Shown here: positions 3,134 through 40,896 of the stretch, piece after piece | Layout: every line of letters starts with the position of its first letter | How positions within the stretch are numbered: the stretch's first letter is position 1 | Origin: Planctomycetota bacterium | Lineage (GTDB): Bacteria; Planctomycetota; Planctomycetia; Pirellulales; PLA5 | DNA length: 64,000 nt | NCBI GenBank assembly: GCA_003576845.1 | Contig: QEVJ01000029.1 | Location: 1-64,000, forward strand | Reading direction: 5' to 3' | Notes under the pieces: generated by a model | Seen by the model: the letters and a program-made list of their open reading frames with translations, nothing else | Told to the model about the DNA's origin: nothing | Databases searched by the model: none | Made by a program: the position numbers and the translations under genes

Positions 3134-4405
3134 CTATGCGGATTGCATCAAGCCCAACGGGGGCGACTTCGCCGAATACTCGGGGAACAGGCCCTCGCGA
3201 ATGCCGTCAAAGCCGAACAGCCCCTCGAGAACTTCGGCAAACACCACGCGAAAATCCGTATGCACGGGCAAGTCGCGGCTCTCGTACAACTGGTTTTCGT
3301 CCAATCCATTCCAAGTGCCGTATACCTTTTTTCCACAGACGCCCGCTCCGATCGCGAGCATGAAGCCGCCGTGCCCATGATCCGTGCCCTGATTGCCGTT
3401 CTCCTTGACCGTGCGTCCGAATTCGCTCATCACGAGCACGCAAACCCGATTTCCTGCGGCGTCGAGATCCTCATAGAATGCCCTCAACGATTCGCTCACG
3501 TCGCCGAGCATCCGGCCGAGTTGCCCCGTTGCCGGGCCTTCGTTGATGTGGTGATCCCAGCCGCCGTAATCGAGCGCCGTGACTTCCAACCCGCGGTTCG
3601 CCTTGACGACCTTGGCCAAATCGGCAAGTTGTCGCGAAAACTCGCTGTTGGGGTACTTCACTGTTGCCGCGGGCGACTTGTCGAGCACTTCCTGCAACTC
3701 GCGAAGCTGCTCGATCGTGCGCGCGCCGAACTGCTGAATTGCCCCGCGCGTCTGCGCGCCGAGAGGATCGCTTCGGCCGAACGTCTTGCGGGGCATTTCG
3801 CCCGGATAAAGCTTAGCGTAGGTCGAAAGCGCAAGCTCCGCCTTTTGGTCCGGCTTGGCGAGGACCGAGTACTTTCCCCGCATCGAGCGCGGCAACAACG
3901 GTTGAAGCGATATCGCCCGCAAGTTCGCGTCGCTCTTCGACTTCGTTGCCTCTAGATATCGATTGAGCCACCCCGTCGAGATCAGCTTCTCGCCCGGTGC
4001 GCCGCGTTCCATGAAATCCTGCGCGTCGAAATGGCTGCGCGTGCCGTGAGGAGACCCCACGCAGACGATTGGCGCGCAGTGGCCGCGCTCGTACATCGCA
4101 TGGAGCGCCGCCATATTCGGGTTGAATCCGAACGTGCCATCCGCAGGCAAAACGCGGTTCGGCCCGGCGCCGCCTGGCCCGGGCAGCGCCAGATTCGGCC
4201 GCCACCGGGCGAGGTTCGCGTCGGCGTACGGAACGATCGTTCCCAGCGGGTCGGCGCCGCCGCGCAGGTAAACTGCAATTAGCGTCGGCTTGGTTCGTTG
4301 AGTCGGTCGGCTTTCCGGCGGCGCCGCGCAAGCGACCGATGCCAGCGTTGCGCCGGCCGCGCACGCTCCGGCCTGGTGTAGGAAACCGCGACGTGTCGCA
4401 ACCAT
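3134..4405 (-). CDS. Tat-exported DUF1501 protein (pair 4)
   Basis: DUF1501 proteins have a sulfatase/alkaline-phosphatase-like fold, are exported, and have no established reaction. Here a TRRGFLHQ twin-arginine signal opens the protein. Conserved DUF1501 segments are LRGGADPL near the front, GGWDHHIN in the second half, and EFGRTVKENG followed by TDHGHGG. The His/Asp positions resemble a metal site. The ATG at 4405 has an AGGAGA ribosome site 6 bases upstream, so the longer frame to 4450 is not used. It is the last gene of the long minus-strand run and follows its DUF1800 partner by 53 bases. It is the most divergent of the four DUF1501 copies (WDHH instead of FDTH). Confidence 0.88.
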   Translation of the reverse strand: MVATRRGFLHQAGACAAGATLASVACAAPPESRPTQRTKPTLIAVYLRGGADPLGTIVPYADANLARWRPNLALPGPGGAGPNRVLPADGTFGFNPNMAALHAMYERGHCAPIVCVGSPHGTRSHFDAQDFMERGAPGEKLISTGWLNRYLEATKSKSDANLRAISLQPLLPRSMRGKYSVLAKPDQKAELALSTYAKLYPGEMPRKTFGRSDPLGAQTRGAIQQFGARTIEQLRELQEVLDKSPAATVKYPNSEFSRQLADLAKVVKANRGLEVTALDYGGWDHHINEGPATGQLGRMLGDVSESLRAFYEDLDAAGNRVCVLVMSEFGRTVKENGNQGTDHGHGGFMLAIGAGVCGKKVYGTWNGLDENQLYESRDLPVHTDFRVVFAEVLEGLFGFDGIREGLFPEYSAKSPPLGLMQSA

Positions 4406-4458
4406 GATCGTCTCCTCTCGTGAAGCGTGCGCCGCAATTGCACTGCGCACGTACCCGC

Positions 4459-5958
4459 CTATTGCTGTTGATATGCCGCCGAGCCAAGCGCCAGCGCAAC
4501 CATCTCACGAATGTCCCCGGTGTCGAGTAACAGTTTCTTTGTGGCCGTATCACTGACCGCCGGCAATACGTGTTCGAGAATCTTCTTCGTGCGCGTTTCT
4601 TGCGTTGCCTGCAGCACTTCCTCGGTGAACTCGTTGCCCACCTTGACGCCGTCCAGATTGCCGAGGACCAGCGCGATTGCGACATTCCACCGGTAAACCA
4701 TCACGCCCGGATCGAGCCACGCTTCGGCTTCGTCGTAATAGCCGGTCGGTTCCAGGCAACCATAGACCGGTTGGCCCATGATTTCCAACTCTTTGGCCAG
4801 CCGCTCCGTCGACTCGATTTCGGCCCCCGTCGTTCGCAACACGCTTACGACGAATTCGAACGGAGTCTTGAACTTCGAGCGGTAATGCCGCGCGCCGAGA
4901 AACTCCGGGCTGTTCGCGATCGCCCGATACACTTCGCGTAGGTCGCCGCCGGTGGCTAGGAACGTTTCGGCGATTCGCTCGACGAGCGCGTCCGACGGGT
5001 GATCGTCGATAAACCGAACGCACAGTTTCCGCGAGATGAACCGCGCCGTGTTCGGATGATTCGCCAGATGCCGGATCGTCCGCTCGCCGTCCGCCTCGCC
5101 GCCCGCCCCGTCGACATGCAACCCCATCACGCTCGCACTACCGGAATCGTGCATTTCCGACCGGAAAACAAAGCCGTACTCGCCGTCGCCGCGCTTGCCG
5201 CAAGTCCATCCCGTAAGTACGCGAGCGAGTTCCACGACGTCCTGCTGCGTATAGCCGTTGTCCACGCCCACCGTGTGAAGTTCCATCAGTTCGCGGGCAT
5301 AGTTCTCGTTGAGACGTCCAACTCGCGATACATGATTGTCCAGATACACGAGCATCGCGGGATGCCGCGCCGTGGCGAGCAGCAGATCTTCGAATTTGCC
5401 GAAAGCGTGCTTTCTTAGCACGTGCGTTTCGTAGTGCGACGCCAACAACGGAACCTTGTCGAAATACACGTTAAAGTGATTTCGCCAGAAGTCGACGACG
5501 GCTTCCTGCAATTGCCGCCGGCCATATGCGGCTCGCCAGATGGTCGACGCCACCAACTCGTCCTTGAGCTTCGCAACTCGTTTCTCGTCGGTTCCGATTT
5601 GCTGCAGCTCCGCGAGCGAAAGCGCCAGCGACGGACACTGCTTCCGAATCGTGGAATCGGCGAGATAATCGTTGATCGCTTCGGGACGCAATTGTTCGTC
5701 CACCCAGTTCTTCCAGCCCAGCGAACTGACGTAAGCCACGTCGCCGGGCCGCGGTCCGAACGCCAACCGATTCAAAACGTGACTGGTCGCTTCCTTTTCG
5801 GTCAACCGCCGAACCGCCGGCGGATCGGAAAAAGCGCCGGGCGCCAACCCAAGAAGGGCTACGAGGGAAAACAGCGAGGGCGCCCAGCGCGCGATACCCA
5901 GAGAGAATGTTGCCACGCGCTGCGTAGAGGAATCTGCACGAATCGAAGTGGGAAACAT
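4459..5958 (-). CDS. Exported DUF1800 protein (pair 4)
   Basis: A 499-residue DUF1800 protein with a signal peptide and then the family opening (EATSHVLNRLAFGPRPGD). Other family landmarks seen are FWRNHFNVYF, LVYLDNHVSRVGRLNENYARELMELHTVG, read here in parts, and LTGWTCG. The function of DUF1800 is unknown; genes of this family regularly sit beside DUF1501, which suggests a joint extracytoplasmic role. I chose ATG 5958, which has GAGG five bases upstream, over a TTG at 6000 that would overlap the preceding gene. It lacks the long coiled coil found in two of its paralogues. The gaps of 29 and 53 bases to its neighbours indicate one transcript. Confidence 0.88.
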   Translation of the reverse strand: MFPTSIRADSSTQRVATFSLGIARWAPSLFSLVALLGLAPGAFSDPPAVRRLTEKEATSHVLNRLAFGPRPGDVAYVSSLGWKNWVDEQLRPEAINDYLADSTIRKQCPSLALSLAELQQIGTDEKRVAKLKDELVASTIWRAAYGRRQLQEAVVDFWRNHFNVYFDKVPLLASHYETHVLRKHAFGKFEDLLLATARHPAMLVYLDNHVSRVGRLNENYARELMELHTVGVDNGYTQQDVVELARVLTGWTCGKRGDGEYGFVFRSEMHDSGSASVMGLHVDGAGGEADGERTIRHLANHPNTARFISRKLCVRFIDDHPSDALVERIAETFLATGGDLREVYRAIANSPEFLGARHYRSKFKTPFEFVVSVLRTTGAEIESTERLAKELEIMGQPVYGCLEPTGYYDEAEAWLDPGVMVYRWNVAIALVLGNLDGVKVGNEFTEEVLQATQETRTKKILEHVLPAVSDTATKKLLLDTGDIREMVALALGSAAYQQQ

Positions 5959-5987
5959 AAGTGCCTCGTCGCCGCTTGCACGGCGGG

Positions 5988-7229
5988 TCACGCCAGGCAA
6001 TCGAACGCCGCATAGTCGCCGCCCAGCACCGGTCTTGCCTGCATCGCCAAATGTCGCTCCAGGATTGCTGCGTACACCTGCCGAAAATCGATGGAGAACT
6101 TCAGGTTGCCTTTGTCGAGATCGGCAAGGTTAGGGGCCGGACCGTGAAGCCCCGGCTTCACGCACGGACCGATCAAAAACATGGGGCCGGCCGTTCCATG
6201 GTCCGTGCCGCCGCTGCCGTTCTCCTGGGCTCGCCGCCCAAACTCGCTGAACGCCATGGTCAACACCCGGTCGACGTTGCCTTGCGCCGTAAGGTCGCGC
6301 TGAAACGCGACGACGGCCTCGCTCATTTGTTGCATGAGCCGGTCGTGCCGGCCGCGCTGTCCGGCGTGCGTATCGAACCCGCCGTGAACGACATAATAGA
6401 TTCGCGTCTCCAACCCTCCGGCAATCAGCGCGCCGACGGTCTCGAGCGACTTTCCCAACGGTGTCGCAGGGTATTCCGACTTGCCGAGATGCTTCGATGC
6501 CAGCTCTCGTACGCGCTCGCTGCTCGCGTTCGCCGCGACCGACGTGCGCGTCACGTATTGCAGCGCATCGTTCTCCGCAAGCTCCCCTCCGTTCTGCTGG
6601 AGCGCCCGATACGCGCTCTCGCGGATTCGCTCGCCCCGGCCTCCGTTGAAGCGGAAGCCTTCCGGCTGTTGGAAACACAATCCCCGATGGCGCTCCCCTT
6701 CGACGGCGAGCGGGGCCGCCCCGGAACCAATCGCCACGCTCAGCGCAGGATTCGGTTCCTCTCCCCCCAAGGAATCGACGGCCCGTCCGAGCCAGCCCGC
6801 TCCCGCGCGGCGTCCCTTCGGATCCGCCGTGTGCCAAATATCCATGGAGTGAAAATGGCTCAAGTTCGGGTTCGGATACCCAACCGACCTTACGATCGCG
6901 AGCGACCGCGCATCCAACAAGTCGCGGAATCCGGTCAGGTTCGGGTGCAACCCGGCCTCGTCCGAGACCTTGAGCGCGTCTCGCTCGTCGATCCGCGTCG
7001 AACGGCGCAGCCGCCGATAGTCGTCGTTTCGTAACGGGACAACCGATGATAGCCCGTCGTTGCCGCCGCCGAGTTGCAACACCACGAGCACCGAACCGCC
7101 AGCCGGTTCGTTCGGCCCCGCCAGAGCCGATCTCACCAGGAACTGAGGCAACCCGCAGCCAATCCCGACAACGCCCAGCCCGGTCGCCAGGAACTCGCGC
7201 CGGGTTGCAATCCCGATTGAGCCTACCAT
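5988..7229 (-). CDS. Tat-exported DUF1501 protein (pair 3)
   Basis: A 413-residue DUF1501 protein. The twin-arginine signal is ATRREFLATGLGVVG, ending near ALAG. Family landmarks are LQLGGGNDGLS, NPNLSHFHSMDIWHTA, GGFDTHAGQ, FSEFGRRAQENG and GTDHGTAGPMF. The start is fixed by an AAGGAG ribosome site 7 bases before ATG 7229; the open frame extends further but without signals. It lies between its DUF1800 partner (74 bases upstream) and the next DUF1800 gene. The His/Asp clusters match an alkaline-phosphatase-like metal site, but the substrate is unknown. Confidence 0.9.
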   Translation of the reverse strand: MVGSIGIATRREFLATGLGVVGIGCGLPQFLVRSALAGPNEPAGGSVLVVLQLGGGNDGLSSVVPLRNDDYRRLRRSTRIDERDALKVSDEAGLHPNLTGFRDLLDARSLAIVRSVGYPNPNLSHFHSMDIWHTADPKGRRAGAGWLGRAVDSLGGEEPNPALSVAIGSGAAPLAVEGERHRGLCFQQPEGFRFNGGRGERIRESAYRALQQNGGELAENDALQYVTRTSVAANASSERVRELASKHLGKSEYPATPLGKSLETVGALIAGGLETRIYYVVHGGFDTHAGQRGRHDRLMQQMSEAVVAFQRDLTAQGNVDRVLTMAFSEFGRRAQENGSGGTDHGTAGPMFLIGPCVKPGLHGPAPNLADLDKGNLKFSIDFRQVYAAILERHLAMQARPVLGGDYAAFDCLA

Positions 7230-7303
7230 ATCGTGCTCCTTTGCTACGTCTCGACAGCGGTGATGCTCGTCGAGCCTTCGTCCGCCGTGTCGAGAATTCG
7301 CAC

Positions 7304-8881
7304 TCAGGTCACTTGGTATTCCGGCATGCATATCATCAACACGAGGACCGCCCGCAAACGCGCGTTTACTTCGTCCCGCTTCGAGTCCCATTCCTTGCTC
7401 GCCGGAAATGGCCGTCCGTTGTCCAGGTAATCGATCAATGCTTGCCGCTTCGATTCGGCGAGTGGCACCGACAGACACGCCCCGGCGAGATAGTCGACGA
7501 CCTCGCCCGCGTTAGCGAATCGCCGAGCCTCGACCGCCGCGATCACGTCGAAACCGCCTTCCGCTTGCCGCTTCCCGCGCCGCGAAGGGTCGACGAGATT
7601 GGCGAGCGAGTTATAGCGTGCGAACACGAGGCGGCTGTTGATCCAATCGCGACCTCCGGGCCAGCCTTTGACGTTGGGCGGCTGAAACAGGTCCTGGCCC
7701 ATGTTCCGCGCCGCCTGATACCCCGCCGCGAAGTCGCCCTCCTCAATGCCCAACACTCGATAGGTTCCGACGACGAGCTGGATCGGACTCTTGACCTGCG
7801 TGCCCATCGCCCGCGAACTATAGAATTCGGCCGACATGAACAGGTTCTTCAAAACCGGGGCGAGCCGGAATTCGTGCCGCCGAACCAGCGTCGAGAGCCG
7901 TTCGATCGTCTCTTCCGATGGCGAGTCGTGCGCGAAAAATGCAAACAATTTCGCGGCGACGAATCGCGACGTCTGCGGCTGACGCAGGATCAAATCGACC
8001 AACCCATCGCCATCGTACCGTCCCTTCTCGCCGAAAATCGTCTTTTCGCCCTCGTCGTGCTTGTTCTTCGCGAACCGGAATGTCGCGGCCTCGCGAACGA
8101 AGGTGTAGCCAGTGAGGGCTCGCGCCGCCTCACGAATGTCCTGCTCCGTGTAGTTCCCCTCGCCCATCGAAAACAGTTCCATGATCTCGCGGGCAAGATT
8201 CTCGTTGGGTCGCCGTCGCTCGTTACGGTTGTTGTCCAGATACCGCAGCATCGCCGGATCGCGGACGATGCCGCGAAGCAACGCCGCGAAGTCGTCCGCG
8301 TGCGTTCGCAGCATCTGGTTCTGCACCCACAGCGCGTAGCTGTCGCGAACGACCTGATGCTCCGTGGCAAAGTGCCCGTGCCAGAAAAGCGTCAGCTTCT
8401 CTTCGAGTGGCCGCGGCGACGCGATCATCCGCTGCATCCACCATGCCCGCAGCCGCGCTAACTGCGCTGCGTCCTTCTTGCGGCGTTCCTGGTCGAGACG
8501 CCGCCGCTCTTCTGGCGGCACCGACTTCGGATCGCGCCCGTCGCGAAACGCCGATTCCACGTCGATCGGCAGATCCCAGGCTGCATCGTCGCGAAACTCG
8601 ACGAGCTTATCGACGGCCCCCTCCAGGCCCAGCGCGTGCAGATTCCTTGCTTCGTCCGGAGTGCCGCCAAATCCGGCGCGCGACAACAGGTGCCGCGCCT
8701 TCGCGCGATCGAAATCGCCAGGGTCCAGACGCGCCAACCCCTCCGCCTCGACGACTCGCGCGCTCTGCGGCTCCGCAGTAACCGGCGGCGCGGCCTCACC
8801 CCTGCTCGACCATGCGACCAGCGCCACAACACCAATGGCGAAACAACCGGGCTTTGCGAACCTACTCATCGCCGCCACCAT
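7304..8881 (-). CDS. Exported DUF1800 protein (pair 3)
   Basis: A 525-residue DUF1800 protein with a signal peptide (cleavage near GEAA). Landmarks are KARHLLSRAGFGGTPDEA near residue 60, LFWHGHFATEHQ, LRYLDNNRNERRRPNENLAREIMELFSMGEGNYTE in parts, ALTGYTF and NVKGWPGG. It follows the diheme cytochrome gene by only 9 bases, a tight coupling that suggests translation from the same message. Two ATG codons (8881 and 8869) are possible starts and neither has a strong ribosome site. A short charged stretch stands where two paralogues carry a long coiled coil. Function unknown. Confidence 0.88.
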   Translation of the reverse strand: MVAAMSRFAKPGCFAIGVVALVAWSSRGEAAPPVTAEPQSARVVEAEGLARLDPGDFDRAKARHLLSRAGFGGTPDEARNLHALGLEGAVDKLVEFRDDAAWDLPIDVESAFRDGRDPKSVPPEERRRLDQERRKKDAAQLARLRAWWMQRMIASPRPLEEKLTLFWHGHFATEHQVVRDSYALWVQNQMLRTHADDFAALLRGIVRDPAMLRYLDNNRNERRRPNENLAREIMELFSMGEGNYTEQDIREAARALTGYTFVREAATFRFAKNKHDEGEKTIFGEKGRYDGDGLVDLILRQPQTSRFVAAKLFAFFAHDSPSEETIERLSTLVRRHEFRLAPVLKNLFMSAEFYSSRAMGTQVKSPIQLVVGTYRVLGIEEGDFAAGYQAARNMGQDLFQPPNVKGWPGGRDWINSRLVFARYNSLANLVDPSRRGKRQAEGGFDVIAAVEARRFANAGEVVDYLAGACLSVPLAESKRQALIDYLDNGRPFPASKEWDSKRDEVNARLRAVLVLMICMPEYQVT

Positions 8882-10327: not shown

Positions 10328-10651
10328 TCATCGGACAAACGCGCGTTTGATCGCGCTCCACATCGTGTGCGGTTCGGGGACCGCAGAATGTGGCGAATCG
10401 ACGCGCCATTGCCCCCGCTCGCCACACTCGTCCATGCCCACCCACTCCATGTGAATCGCGTCCTCCGGACAGGCCGTGGCGCACGCGCCCTCGCTGCCGC
10501 AGTCGTGTGGGCGAACGAGCGTTGCATACGACCAGACCATGTGCAAGCATCCGTGGTCGCACGCTTCGACGCACGTTGCGCACCCCGTACACGAGTCCTG
10601 GTCGACCACCGGAACGTACTTAAAACCGTCGTGCATATTCGTCGCTCGCAT
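10328..10651 (-). CDS. Ferredoxin-type 4Fe-4S protein
   Basis: A small iron-sulfur protein of about 107 residues. The first cysteine set is canonical (C21, C24, C27, C31 in CTGCATCVEAC). The second is unusual: C51-x5-C57-x3-C61-Pro, with an extra C35, so the second cluster may use a non-standard ligand spacing or be a 3Fe-4S centre. There is no signal peptide, so it should act in the cytoplasm, unlike its exported neighbours. Either ATG 10651 or ATG 10636 could be the start; I took the first, 17 bases after the DUF1326 gene. Its redox partner is unknown; the adjacent NO-converting membrane enzyme is one candidate. Confidence 0.8.
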   Translation of the reverse strand: MRATNMHDGFKYVPVVDQDSCTGCATCVEACDHGCLHMVWSYATLVRPHDCGSEGACATACPEDAIHMEWVGMDECGERGQWRVDSPHSAVPEPHTMWSAIKRAFVR

Positions 10652-10668: not shown

Positions 10669-11349
10669 TCAGCGGGAGAATCCCCCAACGCATGCCGTTG
10701 TCGGGAGTCCTGCCCGCGCGGAGCTCGGGTCTCTGGCGGTCCCCTCGGATTCGCGAGCCCGCGCGGCGCAGGACCAATCGACGGTAGCGGCCGTGTAGTT
10801 GTAATGGACGGACGACGAAGGGCGGACTTCACCGACGCCGCGGGCCTTCGCGGCAGCCCAATCGGCTTCCTCCATTCGCCGCGTCCGCAACGTGATGTCG
10901 CCGGCGTTCAGAACGACGTAACCCATCGCGCAGCCCTCGCCAACCCGCAAGTCGATCGGAGCGGTCTCGATCGCTCCGACGTCGCCCAACGCCTGTCCAG
11001 CCAGGCTCTTGATTAAATCGACGAGCGCAGCTTGCTGCGCCGCGTTGGCACGTTTGTCGACGAGCAAGGCAGTTCGCGACTTCGCGTTGCCTCGCCCGTC
11101 GTCGACTGCGTGCCGCACACCCACGACGCAGAGGCCGTCGAGTTCGACTCCGCCATGCGCGCCTTTTGTTACTTTCCAGCCGAGCAGTGCTTCTGGCCGT
11201 GCTGCAACGGCTTTCACCGCCACGAACGTCTGCGGAGCGACGACGACGGGCGCCGGAGCTTCCACGTACATCCCTCGAACGGTCTCCGCCGCGTTGGCAG
11301 GGCCAACGTGCAAAGCCATCGCCAACGCCAAAGTCGTAGCCAACCTCAT
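10669..11349 (-). CDS. Exported DUF1326-like protein
   Basis: A 226-residue protein with a signal peptide (MRLATTLALAMALHVGPANA). The mature part resembles DUF1326: VRGMYVEAPAP, an ALLGWKV segment, LCVVGV, LLVDKRANAAQQAALVDL and a C-terminal CAMGYVV segment. No biochemical role is known for this family. The final 35 residues (after Cys198 or so) are Ser/Arg rich and look poorly conserved. It is 107 bases downstream of the NO dismutase-like gene and just upstream of the ferredoxin gene. An AGG site lies about 7 bases before ATG 11349, and the frame upstream of this codon has no coding character. Confidence 0.7.
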   Translation of the reverse strand: MRLATTLALAMALHVGPANAAETVRGMYVEAPAPVVVAPQTFVAVKAVAARPEALLGWKVTKGAHGGVELDGLCVVGVRHAVDDGRGNAKSRTALLVDKRANAAQQAALVDLIKSLAGQALGDVGAIETAPIDLRVGEGCAMGYVVLNAGDITLRTRRMEEADWAAAKARGVGEVRPSSSVHYNYTAATVDWSCAARARESEGTARDPSSARAGLPTTACVGGFSR

Positions 11350-11456: not shown

Positions 11457-13901
11457 TCAGAAGTTCGCGACGGGCACGCGATCCGGTTGCGCCGCCGGCC
11501 GCGTACCGTAAGTTGGCGCTTCCGGCGCCGCCAACACCGACTTCGGCACGACGAATTGCTCTTCCACGGTTTGCGCGTCTTTCAATCCAAACCACCGCGT
11601 GACCATGAACCAGGTCAACGGAAGAACGCCGCCGACGATGAAGATCAGCACACCCACTCCTCGCAGCCACGTTAGGTTCTGGAACGTAGCGCCGCCAAGG
11701 TATCCATTAGATCGCGAGTAGGCATAACCTTCCGTCATCGCGGCCATAAGTTGATGCACCCCTACCGGGAAAAGGTCCATCACAACCATCAGCATCAAGC
11801 CGATATTCAGCGACCAAAACGTCGTCTTGAGCAGTTTTGCGTTCCAGAGCTTCGGTCCGACGTTCCAGCGGGCACAGAACAACATCGTGGCGATCGCCAG
11901 ATTGCCGTACACGCCAAACAACGCCGCATGCCCGTGATTCACAGTCAGGTAGGTGCCGTGCTGGTAGTAATTCACGATCGGAAGATTGATCATGAACCCC
12001 AATACGCCCGCGCCCAGGAAGTTCCAGAAGTTGACGCCCACGAGATACAAGAACGGCTCGGCCAGCCCGAATGTGGCTTTTGCGCCGTTACCGTTGGCGC
12101 GCGCGAGCATGTGCTCCGGCATATGACGGAACCGCCATGCCTCGATAGTCAGGAGCACGAGAGGCGCAACCTGCAAGCTCGAAAGTACGCCGCCAAGCGC
12201 GACCGTTTCGATCGACTTGGCGTTCCAGTAGAAGTTGTGGCTGATGCCGATCAACCCCGACCCGAGGAACAGCACGGCCGCCAGGTAGACCACGCGTGCG
12301 GCGACGAGGTGGCTGACGAAGCCCATCAAGTACAGGAAGTACGCGACGATAATCGTCGTGAACACCTCGAAGAAGGCCTCGACCCACATGTGGATCGTGC
12401 ACCACCGCCAGAAGTCGGCGATGACGAAGTTCGTTTCCGGCTTGGCGACGAACGACGCCGTGAACATGAAGATGATCCCGGCGATCGAATACACGATCCA
12501 GTTCGGCAGGGTCCACGATTGCTTTTGCCGCAACACGGGCCACAATCCTCGCGCGACGATGATGAACCACGTAATGAACGACGCGAACAGAACGGTTTGA
12601 TACAGCCGTCCCATCTGCATGAACTCCCAGCCCTGAGCGCCGATCCAGCGCCACATCCCGCTGTCGCCCAGCAGACCCTTGACGCCCAACGGAATACCGA
12701 AGGCGACACCGGCTGCCACCGCCACGAGCATCCAGAACAAGGTGTTGATCCACTTGAGCTGGCCGGAAGGCTCCGGGCGGCAAATCAGCGGCAGCACCCA
12801 AATCGTCGCAGCAAACCAGCATACGGCCACCCACAACACCGAGATCTGCGTGTGCCACGCCCGCGAAATCGTCACGGGAATCAGCGTCTTGAGATCCGTT
12901 CCGAAATACTTGCCGAGATTGATGAAGTCGCTGATCGCCAACAAGCCGGCCAAGACCTGCACCAGGAATAGGATCGCGGCCACTGCGAAAAACTTGTAAG
13001 TCGCCCGCTGCGTGGGAGTCGGCTTGAATCGATCCACCAGGTCCGAGGTGGCCAGGGGCGGCAACTGCGCCGCCTGCTGCTCCAGGATCGCCTCGCGGTC
13101 CATTTTGCCGTAGTAATAGAAGATCACGCCGATCGTGAGGATCACGAACAACGTTCCGATCACGCTCCAGAGCACCAATCCGCCGTGCGGCAAGTTGCCC
13201 GCCAGTGGATCGTGCGGCCAGTTGTGGGTGTAGCTGTACGCATAGCCGGGTCGCTCCGCGGCGCACAACCAGCCGCCCCAATAGAAGAACGCCGACAATT
13301 CCTTGATCTTTTGCGGGTCGGTGATGTAGTTGTCGGGCTTGAATTGCTCGACTCCCACGAGGTCGCCGCCCTGACCGAATTTCTGGGAATAGAACTGCAC
13401 AAGCCGCTCGAACGCGAACTTCTGCCCCGCGGACATCACCACCGCGCCCGACTGATGCCGGTCCGCTTGGGTTGAGCCGGAAGCGTGGTCCTTGTCGTAA
13501 CGGTTCTCCTTGAGTTCGCGCTGCACCAACGACTGGACCACGGACTGCCGGACCTTCTCGTCGCTGAATGTATCGCGGTATTGGGCATCGTAATGCTCGT
13601 TCATCCATTTGGCGGTCAGATTAAGCGCCTCGCCGGTAAAGTCCGGCCCACGCATCCCGCCGTCGCCCAAATAGCTGCCGTAATCCATGAGCCCATAGCG
13701 AAAGAACACCTGCTGCCCATTGAGGATGTCGTCCGCCGAGAACACGACTTTTCCGTCCTCGTCGACAAAGTTGCAAATCGGCGGGGCGTACTCGTAGGTC
13801 TTGTAGCCGACGTAACCGACCACCGATACGCTCACGGCGAAGATGATGACGAACACCTTCCACCAGTGCTTGCGCTGATCGACCCATTTAATGATGTTCA
13901 C
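11457..13901 (-). CDS. nod: qNOR-family membrane enzyme, putative nitric oxide dismutase
   Basis: An 814-residue haem-copper family protein with one N-terminal helix, a periplasmic domain with no CxxCH (about 35-235) and about 13 further helices, as in quinol NO reductase (qNOR). Haem ligands are kept: H350 (SRAWHTQ) and the H656-G-H658 pair. Fe-B ligands H504 and H555 are kept, but the third is Asn556 (ISHNFYW, normally HH). E508 is kept; the second catalytic Glu is Gln577. At the quinol site the expected His and Glu are Ser324 and Asn328 (AISDFINLG). I recall the same substitutions in the Methylomirabilis proteins proposed to turn 2 NO into N2 and O2 without electrons from quinol. An ordinary or altered NO reductase remains possible. 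The GTG start has GGAGAG 8 bases upstream. It lies between DUF1501 and DUF1326 genes. Confidence 0.85.
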   Translation of the reverse strand: MNIIKWVDQRKHWWKVFVIIFAVSVSVVGYVGYKTYEYAPPICNFVDEDGKVVFSADDILNGQQVFFRYGLMDYGSYLGDGGMRGPDFTGEALNLTAKWMNEHYDAQYRDTFSDEKVRQSVVQSLVQRELKENRYDKDHASGSTQADRHQSGAVVMSAGQKFAFERLVQFYSQKFGQGGDLVGVEQFKPDNYITDPQKIKELSAFFYWGGWLCAAERPGYAYSYTHNWPHDPLAGNLPHGGLVLWSVIGTLFVILTIGVIFYYYGKMDREAILEQQAAQLPPLATSDLVDRFKPTPTQRATYKFFAVAAILFLVQVLAGLLAISDFINLGKYFGTDLKTLIPVTISRAWHTQISVLWVAVCWFAATIWVLPLICRPEPSGQLKWINTLFWMLVAVAAGVAFGIPLGVKGLLGDSGMWRWIGAQGWEFMQMGRLYQTVLFASFITWFIIVARGLWPVLRQKQSWTLPNWIVYSIAGIIFMFTASFVAKPETNFVIADFWRWCTIHMWVEAFFEVFTTIIVAYFLYLMGFVSHLVAARVVYLAAVLFLGSGLIGISHNFYWNAKSIETVALGGVLSSLQVAPLVLLTIEAWRFRHMPEHMLARANGNGAKATFGLAEPFLYLVGVNFWNFLGAGVLGFMINLPIVNYYQHGTYLTVNHGHAALFGVYGNLAIATMLFCARWNVGPKLWNAKLLKTTFWSLNIGLMLMVVMDLFPVGVHQLMAAMTEGYAYSRSNGYLGGATFQNLTWLRGVGVLIFIVGGVLPLTWFMVTRWFGLKDAQTVEEQFVVPKSVLAAPEAPTYGTRPAAQPDRVPVANF

Positions 13902-13961: not shown

Positions 13962-15230
13962 TCAGGCCAGGAAATCGACCAGCGGGTATTGCTGGCCCAA
14001 CACTCCCTGGCTCGGGATCGCCAGCCATTTTTCGAGCACGGTTGCGTATACACTGCGGAAGTCCGTGGTCGGTTTGAGCCAATCGCCGCCGCCGCCGAAT
14101 ACGTCTTTGAGGCTCGGATGCGCTCCATGCACGCCCGGCTTCACCGGCCCGAACAGGAACATCGCAGCCGCGGCGCCGTGATCCGTACCTTGCCCGCCGT
14201 TCTCCTTGACCGTGCGGCCGAACTCGCTGGCGGTCATCGTCAGCACGCGGTGCGCCTGCTTATGCGCCCCGAGATCTTTGTAGAACGCGACGATCGCGTC
14301 GTTGAGCTCCTTCATCAGGTTGTCGTGGTGCGGCCGCTGATTGACGTGCGTGTCGAACCCGCCGCCGTGAAACGTGAAGTACATCCGCGTGCTCAATCCG
14401 CCCGCGACCAACCCGGCAATCGTCCGCAAGTGCCGACCCAGCCCTGTATTGGGATACTCGATCGTCGGCTTATAATCCTTCGCCAGCGTACGAATCCGAT
14501 CGCTCGTGGCATTTGCGGCCAGCGCCGTTTGCGAGACGTAATGCAATTCCGAGAGCGGCCCGGGCGCGTTGGGGCCCAGCTCGTGAAGCTGCTTGTATGC
14601 TTCCCCGCGCTTCGCGTCGCCCCGATTGCCGAAGAACCCGAATGCCTCGGGCGCGTCGAACGCGATTCCCTGGTGCCGTCGCCCCCACATTGCCATCGGC
14701 GTGCTGCCGGTTCCGACAGCGATTGCGCCGTCTACGGCAACCGTCTCCACATATGCCGCGTCGCAGGCCTTGCCGATCCAGCCGAACGGTCCTTCACCGG
14801 CCGGGCACAAACGCCCCCGCATATCCGCCGTGTGCCAGATGTCCGTCGAGTGAAAGTGGCTCAGATTCGGGTTCGGATACCCGACGCCCGGCAATGCCGC
14901 CAACGTTCCTTCGTCGAGCATCGTCTTGAAGCCCGCGAGGTTCGGATGCAATCCCAGTTCCGCGTTGATCTTGACGATCTCCTCGTCCTTGACGCGGGTC
15001 ACGTTCCGCGCCTTGGCGTACTCCGGGTGCCCGTAGGGAACCAGCGCACTCATCGCGTCGTGGCCGCCGTTGAATTGCACGACCACGAGCACGCGCTGTC
15101 CCGGTTCGGCTGTTTCGGCCGCCGCAGCGCCCCGAATCAAATAATTCGGCAGCGCCGCGCCGACCCCGACGATTCCGGCGCCGTACCGGACGAATTCCCG
15201 CCTCGTGACAATCTTGATCGGCGACATCAT
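13962..15230 (-). CDS. Tat-exported DUF1501 protein (pair 2)
   Basis: A 422-residue DUF1501 protein placed 60 bases upstream of the putative NO dismutase. It has a VTRREFVRYGAG twin-arginine signal, then VVQFNGGHDAMS, NPNLSHFHSTDIWHTA, GGGFDTHVNQ, ASEFGRTVKENGG and GTDHGAAAAMF. A strong AGGAGG site precedes ATG 15230. Relative to pair 3 it has an extra Gly before FDTH and a short C-terminal insertion (VFGGGGDW). Function is unknown; an exported phosphatase- or sulfatase-like hydrolase fold is the family expectation. Confidence 0.9.
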   Translation of the reverse strand: MMSPIKIVTRREFVRYGAGIVGVGAALPNYLIRGAAAAETAEPGQRVLVVVQFNGGHDAMSALVPYGHPEYAKARNVTRVKDEEIVKINAELGLHPNLAGFKTMLDEGTLAALPGVGYPNPNLSHFHSTDIWHTADMRGRLCPAGEGPFGWIGKACDAAYVETVAVDGAIAVGTGSTPMAMWGRRHQGIAFDAPEAFGFFGNRGDAKRGEAYKQLHELGPNAPGPLSELHYVSQTALAANATSDRIRTLAKDYKPTIEYPNTGLGRHLRTIAGLVAGGLSTRMYFTFHGGGFDTHVNQRPHHDNLMKELNDAIVAFYKDLGAHKQAHRVLTMTASEFGRTVKENGGQGTDHGAAAAMFLFGPVKPGVHGAHPSLKDVFGGGGDWLKPTTDFRSVYATVLEKWLAIPSQGVLGQQYPLVDFLA

Positions 15231-15319
15231 TCTTTCCTCCTACGCGCCGCAGCCGCACTCTTCGCGGCCGCGCCGCAAACAATGACCGCGTCCTTGCGTA
15301 AACCCGACTCGTCCTTGCG

Positions 15320-17659
15320 TCACGACACCTGATACGCGGGCGTACTCATCATCAATACCAACAGCGCTCGCAACCGGCCGTTGAGCTGGTCGCGCTGCGC
15401 GGTCCATTGATCGCCCGGTGGGAGTTCCCCCACGAACCCGATCAGCGTTTTCTTTTGTTCCGCAGTCAGTTCCACAGCCAGGCACGCGCCGGCGAGGTAC
15501 TCCACCAGTTCGGCCGCCGTTGCGGCCTTTCCCTGAACCATGCCCACGACGTCCACTTGCGGCTGTTCGACGAGATTCGCCACGCCGTTGTAGCGCAGCA
15601 GCACTCGATTCGCGCTGATCCAATACCGGCCCTCTTCCCAACCCGATACGTTAGGCGGCTGGAACAGCGTCATCCCCATGTTCTGGACCTGCCAATCCAA
15701 CGCTCCGTAATCGACGCTGCCGAGTTTCAACGTCCGGATCGCGCCGACCATGAGCTCGATGGGACTCTTGATGTGTTGTCCGCGCGAACGTTCGCTGTAG
15801 AACTCTTCCGACAGGAAGAGATTCTTGAGCATCGGACCCAGCTCGTACTGATTGCTCCGCAACACGTGGGCCAACCGATCGGTCAGTTCGTCCGCCGGCT
15901 GACGATACGCGAAGTATTCGAACAACTTTTTGGCGGCGTATCGGGCGGTCGAAGGATGACCCAGGATTACGTCGATCGCTTCGTCGCCGCTGAAGTTCCC
16001 GGTCCGCCCGAGCAGCGTCTTGGGACCCTCATCGTGTGCGGACGTATTGAATCGGAATTGATTCGTGTTCGGCACGTACGTGTAGCCGGTGAGTGCGCGC
16101 GACAATTCGCGCAAGTCCTGTTCCGAATAACCCTGGTCGCGGCCGAGAGAGAATAACTCCAACACCTCGCGCCCCAGGTTTTCGTTTCCACGCCCTTTGA
16201 CGTTCACGTGGTTGTCGAGGTAGATGATCATCGCGGGGTCGTGGATGATACCCCGCAACAAGGCGTCGAACTTGTCCGCGTGCTCGCGAAACAACTCGTT
16301 CTGCTTGAGCAAGATGTTCGATTGGTAAAGCTTGTCTTCGTAACCCGTCGCGAAATGGTCGTGCCAGAAGAGTGCGAGCTTTTCTTCCAACGGCCGCGGC
16401 GTTTCCACCATGCGTCTGAGCCACCATTGACGCAGTAATGCCTGCTGGACGCGTTCGCGATTAGTGCGTTCCTCGTTCAGGCGATTCTGCTCGCTCGAAT
16501 CGAGTCGGGCCTCATAGCCCAACGGACGTTCGGGCGGACGGATATCCACCGTCACGGTGCACGCCGGCTGCCGGTGATACTCGACCAGAAAATCGACGGC
16601 GCCATGCAAGCCCATCGCGTGCAACTTTGCCACGTCTTCCGGCGAGCCTCCAAAGCCGGCCCGGGCCAGCAGATGTCTGGCTTTGGCATAGTCCCATTGG
16701 CCAGATGCGATCGGTTTGAGGCCGCCCATCGCTTCCGCTTCGGCAACCGCCAAGTTATCCAGCGCCACAGCGACCGCCGCCGTTCTTTCGCCCGCTGTTT
16801 TTTCGGCGGCGGTGCGCTGGGCGCTGGTTTGCTCGAGAGCCGCCTTGGCTTTCGCCAGGTTATCGGCGGCCGTTTTTGCCATGTTGGTTTTTTCTGCCGC
16901 GGCCTGTTCGAGGGCGCGGCGTTCGGCTTCGAGACTCGCGGCGGTTTCGGCGAACGCTTTCTTCTTTTCCGCGTCTTGTTCGGTCGCGGCTTGTGCGCTC
17001 GCAGCGGTTGTGGCCGCGGCTTTTTCCGCGAGGGCTTTTGCCGCGGCTTCGGACTCGCCTCCGGCAAGCGCCGCGGCTTGTTGCGCGGCGGAGAATTGTT
17101 CGCCCGCGACGCGTGCGGCTTCCGCGGCCGCCGCTGCCTGTTTTTGAGCGGCGTCTCGCTCGGCGCCGGCCTGGCGAAGGGCCATGTTCGCGGCAAAGGC
17201 GCGTTCTGCGAGCACTTTTTCGGCCGCGTTCTTCGCGGCGGCGGCCCTGTCCGCGGCCGTTTTTTCGGCCGCCGTTTTTTCCGCGGCTAGTTTTTGGGCG
17301 ACCGCTTTCGCGGCCGCAACGGCCTGCTCCGCCGCCTGGGCGGCAGTCGTCGCTTTCACGGCGAGGTCCTTCGCCAACGGCGCGAGGTCGCCTCCAGCGG
17401 CCTTCGCCGCCTCGGCCGCCTTGGCTGCGGCGTCCTTGGCGGTGGCGACGATTTGCTCGGCGGCCGCGACGGCCGCGGCAGAATTCGCGGCGCGGTCCGT
17501 CGCTTCCGCCAGCGCCGTGGCCGCCGCGTCGCGCTCGGCATTGGCGGCCTGTGACGCCGCCAAAGCCTTCTCGACGATAGTCGGTTCGGCGGCCCGAACG
17601 AACGCCGGCGCCACCCACGCCAGCACCAAACTTCCGGCAATTACCACGCGCTTACGCAT
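15320..17659 (-). CDS. DUF1800 protein with long alanine-rich coiled coil (pair 2)
   Basis: A 779-residue exported protein. After a signal peptide (MRKRVVIAGSLVLAWVAPAFVRA) residues 25-312 are almost pure Ala/Lys/Glu helix, with repeated AAEKTAA-type units and few hydrophobics other than Ala, which predicts a very long coiled coil or single helix. DUF1800 follows from about residue 320 (DYAKARHLLARAGFGGSPED) to the end, with LFWHDHFATGY and LTGYTYV. The helix could hold the domain away from the membrane or join it to a partner. The start at 17659 was chosen because the signal peptide begins there. The low-complexity DNA (about 16720-17600) creates many false open frames on both strands. Confidence 0.88.
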   Translation of the reverse strand: MRKRVVIAGSLVLAWVAPAFVRAAEPTIVEKALAASQAANAERDAAATALAEATDRAANSAAAVAAAEQIVATAKDAAAKAAEAAKAAGGDLAPLAKDLAVKATTAAQAAEQAVAAAKAVAQKLAAEKTAAEKTAADRAAAAKNAAEKVLAERAFAANMALRQAGAERDAAQKQAAAAAEAARVAGEQFSAAQQAAALAGGESEAAAKALAEKAAATTAASAQAATEQDAEKKKAFAETAASLEAERRALEQAAAEKTNMAKTAADNLAKAKAALEQTSAQRTAAEKTAGERTAAVAVALDNLAVAEAEAMGGLKPIASGQWDYAKARHLLARAGFGGSPEDVAKLHAMGLHGAVDFLVEYHRQPACTVTVDIRPPERPLGYEARLDSSEQNRLNEERTNRERVQQALLRQWWLRRMVETPRPLEEKLALFWHDHFATGYEDKLYQSNILLKQNELFREHADKFDALLRGIIHDPAMIIYLDNHVNVKGRGNENLGREVLELFSLGRDQGYSEQDLRELSRALTGYTYVPNTNQFRFNTSAHDEGPKTLLGRTGNFSGDEAIDVILGHPSTARYAAKKLFEYFAYRQPADELTDRLAHVLRSNQYELGPMLKNLFLSEEFYSERSRGQHIKSPIELMVGAIRTLKLGSVDYGALDWQVQNMGMTLFQPPNVSGWEEGRYWISANRVLLRYNGVANLVEQPQVDVVGMVQGKAATAAELVEYLAGACLAVELTAEQKKTLIGFVGELPPGDQWTAQRDQLNGRLRALLVLMMSTPAYQVS

Positions 17660-17742
17660 GTTCGCATCCCTTACGCGAATTCCTATATGGCTCGGCCGTA
17701 CGACCAGCCACAAAATGGTTCGTTGGGGCCGACGTGCACGCC

Positions 17743-19005
17743 TCAAGCGACGCAGTCGACCAACGGATACTTTTGCCCAAGAATCGCCTCGCTCGGAGCG
17801 CATAGCCACTTCTCCAGAATGGCCGCGTACACTCCGCGGAAATCGACTTGCATTTTCAGGTTGCCGCGTTCGTCCAAATCGGTAAGGCTGGGTTGCTTGC
17901 CGTGCACCCCGGCTTTGACTCCCGGACCAAATAGGAACATGGGCTGAGCGAGTCCGTGGTCGGTGCCGCCGCTGAAATTCTCTTGCACGCGCCGCCCGAA
18001 CTCACTGTACGTGAGCGTCAACACGCGCTTGTCGTTGCCGCAACGGCAAAGGTCTTCGTAGAAGGCCGAAATCGTCTGGTCGAGTTCGCCCAACAGCGTA
18101 TCCAAACGTCTTGGTTGGTCGGCGTGCGTGTCGTAACCGCCGAAGACTGCGATGCCTTGCGCCGCGTAATAGGCGCGGGCCTGAAGGCCGCTGTTGATCA
18201 ACCCGGCGATCATTCGTACCGAGTTGCCGAACAGCGTGTCGGGATAGCTGACGTTCGTGCGGTACTTGCTGGCCAAGTCGCGGATTCGCTCGCTCGCCGA
18301 GTTCGCGTGGACGGCCGTCTGCTGAACGAATTGCAGGTCGGTCCGTTTCTGCATCGCATCGACCTGGTTGAGTTTGCGATAGAGTTCCTCGCCTTTGGCC
18401 GTCTGCAATCCGCGAAAGCGGAACGAGTCGGGAGACTCGAAGCCGACGCCCGGGTGCGTCTTGCCGGTGATGATCAGCGGCTGCCGCCCCGGCCCGACCG
18501 CTACGTTCAACAGCGGGTCCGGGCAATCGGCGCAGGCGTGATCGAGGTATCGTCCGAGCCAACCGGCCGAGCCAAGTCTTCCGGAGACATTGCGATTGTC
18601 TCCCGCCTCCCAAAAGTCGCGAGAGACAAAGTGACTAAGGTCGAAGTTCGGATAAGCAGTGCCCAGCACCACGGCCATGGCGTTCTGGTCCAGAAGCTTC
18701 TTGAAACCGGTCAACCGTGGATGCAGCGAAACTTCGTCGTTCAGGCGAATCGCCTTCGCCCGGTCGACTGCCAGCGTCGGGCGGTGTTTGCTATAAGCGT
18801 CGTGTCCCAATGGCGGCACAAGGCTCAACCCGTCGGGGCCGCCCGTAAGCAGCAAAGCAACCACGATCCGTTGTTCGGCTGTGTTGTCGCCGCTAGCGCC
18901 GAGAGCCGTGCGCACGAGGAAATCGGGCAAGGCCGAGCCGGCACCCACGATGCCCAAACCGGTGCGGAGCAATTCGCGCCGCGTAGCGACCTGCAGATCG
19001 TTCAT
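17743..19005 (-). CDS. Tat-exported DUF1501 protein (pair 1)
   Basis: A 420-residue DUF1501 protein with a twin-arginine signal (ATRRELLRTGLG). Landmarks are LLLTGGPDGLS, NFDLSHFVSRDFWEA, GGYDTHADQ, YSEFGRRVQENFSGGTDHG and a C-terminal KYPLVDCVA. The ribosome site AAGGAG lies 8 bases before ATG 19005. A cluster of cysteines (HACADCPDP and LCRCGND) distinguishes it from the other three copies. It is the partner of the DUF1800 gene 99 bases upstream. As for the others, the enzymatic activity is not known. Confidence 0.9.
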   Translation of the reverse strand: MNDLQVATRRELLRTGLGIVGAGSALPDFLVRTALGASGDNTAEQRIVVALLLTGGPDGLSLVPPLGHDAYSKHRPTLAVDRAKAIRLNDEVSLHPRLTGFKKLLDQNAMAVVLGTAYPNFDLSHFVSRDFWEAGDNRNVSGRLGSAGWLGRYLDHACADCPDPLLNVAVGPGRQPLIITGKTHPGVGFESPDSFRFRGLQTAKGEELYRKLNQVDAMQKRTDLQFVQQTAVHANSASERIRDLASKYRTNVSYPDTLFGNSVRMIAGLINSGLQARAYYAAQGIAVFGGYDTHADQPRRLDTLLGELDQTISAFYEDLCRCGNDKRVLTLTYSEFGRRVQENFSGGTDHGLAQPMFLFGPGVKAGVHGKQPSLTDLDERGNLKMQVDFRGVYAAILEKWLCAPSEAILGQKYPLVDCVA

Positions 19006-19104
19006 ATCGAAACTCCTTGCCGGGGAAACCTGTGTCTAGTCGAACTCGTTATCATGGGGCGTCTGGACAGACGTTCCCCAACCACCTTGGACTCAATGCG
19101 GGCG

Positions 19105-21366
19105 TCAGTTGAACTGATAGTCCGGTATGCTGAGCATCACGATCAGCAACTCTTGCAATTTCGCGTTCGTTTCGTCGCGCCGACTAGACCATTGGTCGGC
19201 GGCAGGTAAGTCGCGCTCCAGGTCCGCGAAATCTTTCAACCGCTCCTCCGCCAGTGGCGGCGAAAAACACGCCTTGGACAGATAGCCGGCGGGATGCGAT
19301 ACCGCCTCCGGACCGCCGGCTTGTACGAACGCCACGAGGTCCACTCCGGACCGGCCGGGCTGGGGAACGCCGCGAACCGCGTCCGCGACGGCGTTGTATC
19401 TCGTGAACAGCCGCGCCGTGCTAATCCAACTCTGTCCATACCGCCAGCCTTTGACATCCGGCGGCTCGAACACGTCCTGACCCATTTCGCGCAACGCGCC
19501 CTCCAAGCCGCCGTAATTTGACAGTCGCTTGACGCCCAAATCGCGCAACGCGCCCACGGCTAGCTGGATGGGACACTTGATTTGAGTCCCCACGGCGCGG
19601 GCACCGTAGAACTCCGCGGATAAGAACAGATTCTTGAGCGCCGGTTCGAGTTCATAGTTGTGGTACCGCAATACCGTCGCCAATCGATCGACGGTCTCCG
19701 TCGACGGCTCGTCGTAGGCGAAGAACTCCCACAGCTTTGTCGACACGAACCGCGCCGTCGCCGGCTGTGCGAGGATCAACCGCACCAGATCGTCGCCGTT
19801 CCACGGCCCCTTCGCGCCAAATACCGTCTTTTCGTCCGTGTCGTGCGCGCTCTGCACAACGCGAAACGATCCGGCGCCGTCGAACGTATACCCCGTAAGC
19901 GTCCGGGCCGCCTGGACGATGTCCGCTTCCGTGTAGCCCTGATTCACCCCCATCGAGAACAACTCCATGATCTCGCGGGCCAAGTTTTCGTTCGGGCTTC
20001 CCTTGACGTTGCGGTTGTTGTCGAGATAGCGAAGCATCGCGGGATCGTGAACGACGCCGTAGAGCAAGGCCCCGAAGTTCCCGGCCGCGTTCTCGCGCAG
20101 CAACTGGTTTTGGTGGTACATCGCGTAGCTGTTCTGCACGACGCTGTCTTGCGTCGCGAAATGCCCGTGCCAGAGCAGTGTGAGCTTTTCCTGCAGCGGT
20201 CGCGGCGACTCGACCATTCGCTTGAGCCACCATTGCCGCAGTTGCCCCATCTGGCCGCGCTCCACTCCGGCTCTTGCGCCGGCCACTTGTCCGCGAATGA
20301 AGTCGCCCCGCAATTTGCCTTCGAGCGCGTCTGCCGGAATCGGAGGCACGACCTCGAACGGCGCGTCGGCCGCAGGGCGTCGATAGAACTCGACCAGGTG
20401 GTCGACCGCCTTATAGAGCCCCATGGCGCACAGCGCATCGACTTCCTGTGGCGTCCCCCCGAATCCGGCGCGCACCAGCAGATGCCGCGCCTTCTCACGA
20501 TTCCATTCTTGAGGGGGTAACGGCGTCAAACCGCCGATCGCCGCCGCGCGCAACGGGTAAATCTCCGCGGTTGCCGCTTCGATTTCGGCATTCTTGCGTG
20601 CAATCCGCTGATCGGCAGCCGCCTTAACCGCCTGCTGAGCCTTGACGAACTCTGCCAGTCGCGATTTCGACTGGGCGTCGGTTTCCACCGCCGCAATGCG
20701 ACCCGCGATGTCTGCGGCGCCCGCCGCCTGTTCGACGAGCTGGTGTGTCGTCGAAATCTGCACGGCAGCCCATTGCTGCCGCTCCCATGCCGCTAGGCAC
20801 TGGCTTTCGAACACGGCCTTGCGAGCCGCGTCGGCGTCTGCGGTCCCGGCCTTCTCGGCGTCCTGCGCCTTGATTTCCAGGACCGCACACTCGGCCGCAC
20901 GGCGGGCGGCCATCTTGTCGCGGTAGGCATCTTCCGATGGATAAAGCTGGTCGGTCGCCCGATTGGCTGTGTCGGTCTCGGTCATGAGCCGTTCGGCCGC
21001 AGACCGCATTGTCGCCGACTTCTGTTCGAGTTCCTTGCGGACCGCTTCAACGTCGCTGCCCGCCGCCTCGGCATTCTTCAGCGCACCTTGGAGGGCAATC
21101 AAGCTTTGCAATACCTCTTCGGTCCGCTGCCGCTCGGATCGCGCGATCTCGCGAGTTGCCGATCGAGACATCTCGAGCGAATTCCACTCCGTCCAAATCG
21201 CCCCCTCTTCGTCGGCCGCCTTCTTTGCAGCGGCTTCAGCTGCAGTTAGATCGGCGGCAGCGACGCGGGTCGCCGAGCACACGATCAAGGCCATGCCGAC
21301 GAACGTGGACATCGCAACGAACCGCCGTCGACATTTCCACTTCGCTCGCAATCGTTTCGCTAGCAT
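19105..21366 (-). CDS. DUF1800 protein with coiled-coil N-terminus (pair 1)
   Basis: A 753-residue exported protein and the first gene of the long minus-strand run. The signal peptide is followed by a charged helical region (about 38-272) rich in Ala, Glu, Gln and Lys, with more varied sequence than the alanine-rich coil of pair 2. DUF1800 starts near residue 287 (REKARHLLVRAGFGGTPQE) and includes LLWHGHFATQD, LRYLDNNRNVKGSPNEN and LTGYTFDG. The start ATG 21366 has GGAGGG 8 bases upstream. A sigma-70-type promoter lies at 21471-21500. The coil-plus-DUF1800 layout is shared only with pair 2, suggesting those two arose by local duplication. Confidence 0.9.
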   Translation of the reverse strand: MLAKRLRAKWKCRRRFVAMSTFVGMALIVCSATRVAAADLTAAEAAAKKAADEEGAIWTEWNSLEMSRSATREIARSERQRTEEVLQSLIALQGALKNAEAAGSDVEAVRKELEQKSATMRSAAERLMTETDTANRATDQLYPSEDAYRDKMAARRAAECAVLEIKAQDAEKAGTADADAARKAVFESQCLAAWERQQWAAVQISTTHQLVEQAAGAADIAGRIAAVETDAQSKSRLAEFVKAQQAVKAAADQRIARKNAEIEAATAEIYPLRAAAIGGLTPLPPQEWNREKARHLLVRAGFGGTPQEVDALCAMGLYKAVDHLVEFYRRPAADAPFEVVPPIPADALEGKLRGDFIRGQVAGARAGVERGQMGQLRQWWLKRMVESPRPLQEKLTLLWHGHFATQDSVVQNSYAMYHQNQLLRENAAGNFGALLYGVVHDPAMLRYLDNNRNVKGSPNENLAREIMELFSMGVNQGYTEADIVQAARTLTGYTFDGAGSFRVVQSAHDTDEKTVFGAKGPWNGDDLVRLILAQPATARFVSTKLWEFFAYDEPSTETVDRLATVLRYHNYELEPALKNLFLSAEFYGARAVGTQIKCPIQLAVGALRDLGVKRLSNYGGLEGALREMGQDVFEPPDVKGWRYGQSWISTARLFTRYNAVADAVRGVPQPGRSGVDLVAFVQAGGPEAVSHPAGYLSKACFSPPLAEERLKDFADLERDLPAADQWSSRRDETNAKLQELLIVMLSIPDYQFN

Positions 21367-38497: not shown

Positions 38498-38535
38498 AAT
38501 TGTTCGGCCTCCAAGAGAATCGGCTCGTCGTCGTC

Positions 38536-40263: not shown

Positions 40264-40295
40264 GTTCCGCGGGTATGAATCGGACGACGTAAGAT

Positions 40296-40324
40296 TTGAC
40301 TAAGCGGCAAATAAACCGTATAAA
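40296..40324 (+). promoter_or_regulatory. Sigma-70-type promoter of the Rrf2 gene
   Basis: TTGACT (40296-40301) and TATAAA (40319-40324) are 17 bases apart, predicting a start near 40331. An imperfect inverted repeat, AAACCG (40313-40318) to CGGTT about 25 bases on, spans the -10 and could be the regulator's own operator. The divergent reductase gene starts at 40263, so one bound protein could affect both. Confidence 0.7.
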
Positions 40325-40356
40325 TTGAATCGTATTCGGTTATCTTTCCCACCCGC

Positions 40357-40896
40357 ATGAAGGGCGTCGCCGTGTCTCTAGGTCAGTTCTTCTCGCAGCG
40401 ATTTGGTTACGGCGTTCATGCACTGGCGTACATGGCCAAGAAGCCCGCCGGCGCGATCACCACCGTGCCGGAGCTTTCCGGATGGCTGAAGTCCGTGTGG
40501 CCGTCGACCTCGCATACGTACTTGTCCAACGTCATTCAGCGCATGGCGCGGGGTGGAATACTTCGCAGCCATCGCGGAATCTCCGGCGGCTATTCGCTTG
40601 CGCGTCCTGGAGACCAGATCACGCTGCGCGACGTCGTCGAGTTGCTCGAAGGGGTCGATATCGACCGCTGCGCCCTGTCGCTCGAGAGCGAGTGCCCCGC
40701 CGGTGGGCATTGCTCGATTCAGCGCAAGCTGCGCCGTATGGAACTGGAATACTTGAAGCTCTTGGGAAGCGTGTCGATCGAGGCACTGTCGAAGGATGTC
40801 GCCGTGACGCATATTACGCTTTCCGTCGAAAAGCCGGCCGGCGCGAAAACCGCGCGCGCCAAGGCGCCGCGCATCAAAACGGCGCCCGCCAAATAG
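40357..40896 (+). CDS. Rrf2 family transcriptional regulator
   Basis: A 179-residue Rrf2 regulator. The winged helix covers about 12-85 (YGVHALAYMA, GGYSLARP). Three cysteines, C105, C113 and C119, stand where IscR and NsrR bind an iron-sulfur cluster, but with spacing C-x7-C-x5-C. It could sense NO, iron-sulfur status or sulfur supply. Because it is divergent from a sulfite/nitrite reductase, control of that gene is likely. The tail is Lys/Ala rich. GTG 40372 has AAGG 8 bases upstream and gives a typical Rrf2 N-terminus, so translation may begin there instead of at ATG 40357. Confidence 0.87.
   Translation: MKGVAVSLGQFFSQRFGYGVHALAYMAKKPAGAITTVPELSGWLKSVWPSTSHTYLSNVIQRMARGGILRSHRGISGGYSLARPGDQITLRDVVELLEGVDIDRCALSLESECPAGGHCSIQRKLRRMELEYLKLLGSVSIEALSKDVAVTHITLSVEKPAGAKTARAKAPRIKTAPAK

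Follow-up and report, generated by a model that had tools for sequence, protein, structure and literature searches.

A nitric oxide dismutase-type protein with a ferredoxin neighbour in a non-anammox planctomycete

Results

The window, as we call the whole 64,000-nucleotide stretch of DNA analysed here, belongs to a planctomycete assembly of 7.05 Mb in 289 contigs that is 99% complete. An open reading frame at 11457–13901 (−) starts with GTG just after a GGAGAG motif, runs for 814 codons without an internal stop and encodes an 814-residue protein related to the NO reductases of the qNOR type; its gene is referred to below as nod. Pfam assigns residues 45–230 to PF22085, the NorB cytochrome-c-like domain, which is haem-less, and residues 300–752 to PF00115, while none of the NCBIfam models matches the protein. 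Solved qNORs align to it from end to end, with that of Geobacillus stearothermophilus (Gs; PDB 3ayf) first (E=1e-136), followed by those of A. xylosoxidans and N. meningitidis. An AlphaFold model built from a 22-sequence alignment (pLDDT 82, pTM 0.85) has only qNORs among its ten best PDB matches, again with 3ayf at the top (TM 0.84/0.91). Full-length similarity to qNOR, which includes the N-terminal cytochrome-c-like domain, makes it unlikely that the protein is an eNOR, sNOR, gNOR or nNOR.

Residues were matched by a pairwise alignment with 3ayf and by an 85-sequence alignment in Gs qNOR numbering. An earlier note on this DNA had claimed that both haem ligand sets and the Fe-B ligands H504 and H555 are kept, and alignment and codons bear this out: H350, H504, E508, E512, H555, H656 and H658 are all retained, with H504 (CAC; Gs H508) and the catalytic-site residues Glu508 and Glu512 encoded within 12366–12392 (−). 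The substitutions that it had reported at the active site are equally real. In the Fe-B ligand pair H555 (CAC)-N556 at 12234–12239 (−), opposite Gs H559-H560, asparagine (AAC, 12234–12236) takes the place of the third Fe-B ligand, and Q577 (CAG, 12171–12173 (−)) lies opposite the catalytic Glu581 of Gs qNOR. The former quinol site (12918–12932 (−)) has S324 (AGC, 12930–12932) and N328 (AAT, 12918–12920) opposite Gs H328 and E332, as the note had it, and the third quinol-site residue, Asp746, is also lost, being replaced by V751 (11649–11651 (−)); Y332 stands opposite the quinol-site residue F336. The classical qNOR set of His328, Glu332, His559-His560 and Glu581 is therefore not intact. Both alignments agree on every key residue, without any shift from the positions first proposed, which rules out misalignment; a frameshift or assembly error is ruled out by the open frame and by the conservation of the family.

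The nod684F primer (PMC6636425) has a site in the gene at 13216–13233 (−) with 0/18 mismatches, which encodes YTHNWP; classical qNORs have YTNNWP at this position, with His or Gln in some planctomycetes. The primer for FYWIAKP has two mismatches; the motif that follows His-Asn is FYWNAKS rather than the FYWIAKP of the primer-defined NO dismutase (NOD) subtype. A literature text search for the motif HNFYW matched no paper.

The genome encodes four COX1-family proteins, one of which is the window protein; the others are an A-type oxidase, a further haem-copper protein and a second qNOR on contig C245 (L003). This paralogue has His, Glu, His-His, Glu and Asp at every position altered in the window protein, and it is adjoined by a divergently read Rrf2-family regulator gene. 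With a canonical, Rrf2-flanked qNOR encoded separately, ordinary NO reduction does not require nod.

Relatives were collected by a scan of 84,980 genomes, from which the best 80 of 226 stretches were taken. Asn556 and Gln577 occur in all of these 80 wherever the contig covers both sites, although the scan leans towards the HN motif, which was held by one of its six search patterns and not by the other five; no NC10 sequence is among these best 80 of 226. The closest relatives, clade A, are 64–75% identical to the window protein and come from about 20 species, mostly planctomycete MAGs, including Scalindua- and Pirellulales-labelled MAGs and two labelled Verrucomicrobia. A second group, B, of about 50% identity is found in Bacteroidota, planctomycetes, Acidobacteriota and Pseudomonadota. 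Position 324 is mostly His or Asn in group B, with Gly at 751 where checked, whereas clade A has Ser, Ala, Ile, Gly or Met at 324 and Val at 751 where checked. Group N, at about 45% identity, consists of L130 and L131 together with a second copy in each of G177, G207, G280 and G319 (392 planctomycete genomes surveyed). At the quinol site L130 and L131 read NDFVR, and they also contain SHNFYWIAKP; because FYWIAKP is the peptide of the general nod primer of Zhu et al. (PMC6636425), group N stands in for the primer-defined NOD. The same primer-type NOD (NDFVR, FYWIAKP) was seen in six genomes of one planctomycete family (G079, G177, G207, G280, G319 and G291; L135–L139 and L131), four of which also encode a group-B NOD-type gene.

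Trees of 64 and 54 sequences (LG+C20 PMSF), with the root assumed on the qNOR side, unite the proteins with N556 and Q577 in one clade (support 100/100, branch length 0.93), apart from 16 classical qNORs that include the genome's own paralogue. Placement within classical qNOR, which the earlier note had named as fatal to its reading, was thus not found. The window protein falls in clade A (100/100), which is planctomycete-centred and distinct from the branch with the FYWIAKP primer peptide; group N branches outside A+B (92/82). Among 57 other surveyed genomes of the window's order a clade-A gene is present in one (G044, 77% identity), and a member of the window's genus carries a classical qNOR only, which indicates a patchy distribution that presumably arose by transfer and loss. 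A search for further clade-A members in the class of G172 covered 23 genomes. Three loci of the window's order (L087, L088 and L091) encode qNOR variants in which the quinol-site Glu332 is replaced by His (HYTVH) and the active-site His-His and Glu are retained, and these form a separate, odd qNOR lineage.

Among viral contigs, a single-protein query found no relative and an alignment query one weak viral relative; plasmids yielded only NORs of at most 38% identity, and phages no match. A 231-kb contig catalogued as viral (IMG/VR UViG 3300035492_000331; L134) has a NOD-like frame with YTHNWP and VMDFADP that is missing the middle of the protein, including the Fe-B region.

Downstream of nod lie a gene for a DUF1326-like protein (10669–11349 (−); PF07040, E=5e-10) and then one for a ferredoxin-like protein (10328–10636 (−)) with the motifs CxxCxxCxxxC and CxxExxCxxxCP. 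A related ferredoxin gene directly follows nod in eight clade-A genomes, namely that of the window, G044, L005, L007, G287, L009, L015 and L010, and the other copies are 38–56% identical to that of the window. The second cluster motif is one Cys short in most copies, with Glu, Asp or Ser instead, and L010 has all four. No ferredoxin gene was found beside nod at about ten other clade-A loci, roughly half of the clade, or at any group B or group N locus read. The nod–ferredoxin pair was not found mentioned in the openly accessible literature searched. No pmo genes are among the neighbours examined.

On either side of nod (3134–8881 and 13962–21366 of the window) lie gene pairs of the DUF1501/DUF1800 type, at least four in all, and similar pairs occur near nod in some clade-A relatives; these are repeated families common in planctomycetes, and we see no link between them and nod. 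Another clade-A genome, L014, has an Rrf2-like regulator gene divergent to nod, which hints at control that depends on NO or Fe-S. Elsewhere in the window (37136–40896), genes for an assimilatory sulfite-reductase-like protein and a HemN-type radical SAM protein stand divergent to a gene for an Rrf2-family regulator with weak NsrR/RirA similarity.

The contig that carries nod also has, about 3–12 kb past the end of the window, a nitrite oxidoreductase cluster (G000:C227:67114–75568; L167:5115–13569) that encodes NxrA, NxrB, an NxrC-like EB_dh/cytochrome c protein and a chaperone, followed by a truncated globin. NxrA matches that of PDB 7b04 over its full length (1586 bits) and is close to the solved anammox enzyme; the host is a planctomycete outside the anammox group, and other non-anammox planctomycetes with nxr genes have been reported (PMC10732223). 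NarG (1396 bits to TIGR01580) is present with a NarK-type transporter. In this 99%-complete genome NirK and NosZ were not found, NrfA gave no convincing match (best 24 bits), and the search for NirS found only propeller fragments: the matches to the cytochrome-d1 family are short beta-propeller pieces, one of them lactonase-like (41031–42974 of the window).

Of the 20 clade-A genomes, 12 have NxrA, compared with 7 of 44 planctomycetes that lack NOD (Fisher p 0.0008) and 7 of 37 genomes with a group B or N NOD (Fisher p 0.003), p values that are optimistic because the genomes compared are related, in a tally that counts gaps in MAGs as absences. It is present in seven of the eight genomes with nod and ferredoxin, and the copy in G287, one of the 12, is a 43% paralogue. 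The association of nitrite oxidoreductase with clade-A nod is a lead rather than a finding.

Discussion

Ettwig et al. (2012) defined putative NODs by marks that include a His to Asn and a Glu to Gln exchange, the absence of a quinol site and the retention of the other His ligands, and proposed from this residue pattern that NO is dismutated to N2 and O2 (PMC3413370). By the published description (PMC3413370), the window protein resembles DAMO_2434 and DAMO_2437 of M. oxyfera and the proteins of HdN1 and Muricauda in the Fe-B His to Asn and Glu to Gln exchanges and the loss of quinol residues, as well as in the other His ligands and the N-terminal domain without haem c; by primer, it also shares the YTHNWP motif. 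Classical qNORs (3ayf, 8bgw of A. xylosoxidans and the paralogue L003) share its fold and haem ligands at 31–35% identity, but they keep the quinol His, Glu and Asp together with the third His ligand of Fe-B and the second Glu, all of which it lacks. The earlier note had recognised here the pattern of the Methylomirabilis proteins. This stands as far as the 2012 marks named above and the position outside classical qNOR are concerned; the window branch differs from the primer-type NOD (FYWNAKS and DFINLGK instead of the FYWIAKP and DFVGGGP of M. oxyfera, as known from primers). Membership in the NOD-type family, as judged from sequence, is well supported.

The note had also proposed a putative NOD in a planctomycete, and the NOD-type signature and clade agree with this, but it is not the first. 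The literature already describes nod in NC10, Pseudomonadota, Bacteroidota and other groups, and two MAGs of the planctomycete Candidatus Scalindua with nod have been published (PMC10359470); these may be of the type of L006 and L008 or of the group-B type (L074). The Scalindua-labelled L006 and L008 lie within clade A at 69% identity and differ from the window locus in having no ferredoxin beside nod and anammox-labelled hosts. Group B, which we equate with 'qnorB-like' and perhaps with 'unknown qNor-related' genes, shares N556 and Q577 and one clade with the window protein. No description of the clade-A branch, its ferredoxin neighbour or its nitrite oxidoreductase company was found in the openly accessible papers searched.

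A mechanism is proposed in which a membrane enzyme of the N/Q-signature branch of the qNORs would bind haem b, haem b3 and a non-haem Fe-B. We infer that Fe-B has two His and one Asn as its ligands and that the usual entry of electrons from quinol is gone, and one Glu of the catalytic site is lost. Two molecules of NO would meet at the binuclear site and be converted into N2 and O2 without net electron input. In the host, the enzyme could remove NO that comes from outside or from side reactions, the likely main sources since neither NirS nor NirK was found, and it might provide a small supply of O2 to the cell's haem-copper oxidase.

Dismutation is the most likely reaction of the window protein, but we give it only about an even chance, because NOR activity has been argued for the family, no NOD has been isolated or purified and the results on the family conflict (PMC13386854). 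The failure to find a nitrite reductase that would form NO in this 99%-complete genome, and FYWNAKS where the primer-type NOD has FYWIAKP, also weigh against it. NOD-type genes are abundant where N2O is made and genes for methane oxidation are rare, and the N/Q active site is common to all 'qnorB-like' genes, a large and widely distributed set; from these sites and this shared active site NOR activity has been inferred (Fuchsman 2017; PMC5723336, argued from N2O profiles). A reductase with altered electron entry, which would convert 2 NO into N2O with electrons perhaps from the neighbouring ferredoxin, directly or via a partner, is thus a serious contender, if a less probable one. Both haems and Glu508/Glu512 are retained, and the conserved ferredoxin gene, confined to clade A among the loci read, hints at an electron input that dismutation does not need and somewhat favours such input in this branch. 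Yet no ferredoxin adjoins nod in about half of clade A or at any group B or N locus read, the Glu581 to Gln and Fe-B His to Asn exchanges affect residues tied to catalysis, and a canonical qNOR is already encoded in the genome. It is, moreover, not obvious how a soluble ferredoxin in the cytoplasm would reach the side of haem b that is used by quinol or cytochrome c.

It is unlikely that the protein binds NO with little turnover, as a means of detoxifying or sensing it, serving NO tolerance instead of respiration or oxygen production. The Rrf2 regulator divergent to nod in L014, the NO-responsive regulators that adjoin nod elsewhere (PMC13386854) and the apparent lack of nirK and nirS would suit this role, but the strict conservation of the catalytic ligands across phyla argues for a demanding reaction, and M. 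oxyfera expresses its NODs at high levels (PMC3413370). That the gene encodes a classical qNOR altered by chance, or is in decay, is hardly credible: the 31–36% identity to classical qNORs speaks for it, but it is refuted by the invariance of N556 and Q577 in relatives, beside a paralogue with the full His, Glu, His-His, Glu and Asp set, and by the separate clade, together with the intact frame.

If NOD-type enzymes truly dismutate NO, dark oxygen would be possible without methane or hydrocarbons in a planctomycete, probably of the order Pirellulales to judge by its relatives, that also has nitrate reductase and nitrite oxidoreductase as well as a canonical qNOR and an aerobic oxidase. Two features offer handles on dismutation versus reduction with another donor: nod shares its genome with a canonical qNOR, and it forms a pair with a ferredoxin gene. 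Planctomycetes are the dominant contributors to the nxrA pool in two oxygen-deficient zones (PMC10359470). A far-reaching and very improbable extension is that clade-A planctomycetes with anammox-type Nxr and NOD keep up nitrite oxidation in anoxic water, with O2 made by NOD feeding the haem-copper oxidase; if true, it would help to explain the nitrite oxidation seen in apparently oxygen-free waters. Two of the clade-A genomes, L009 and L015, have ARS as their isolate label, which possibly stands for Arabian Sea.
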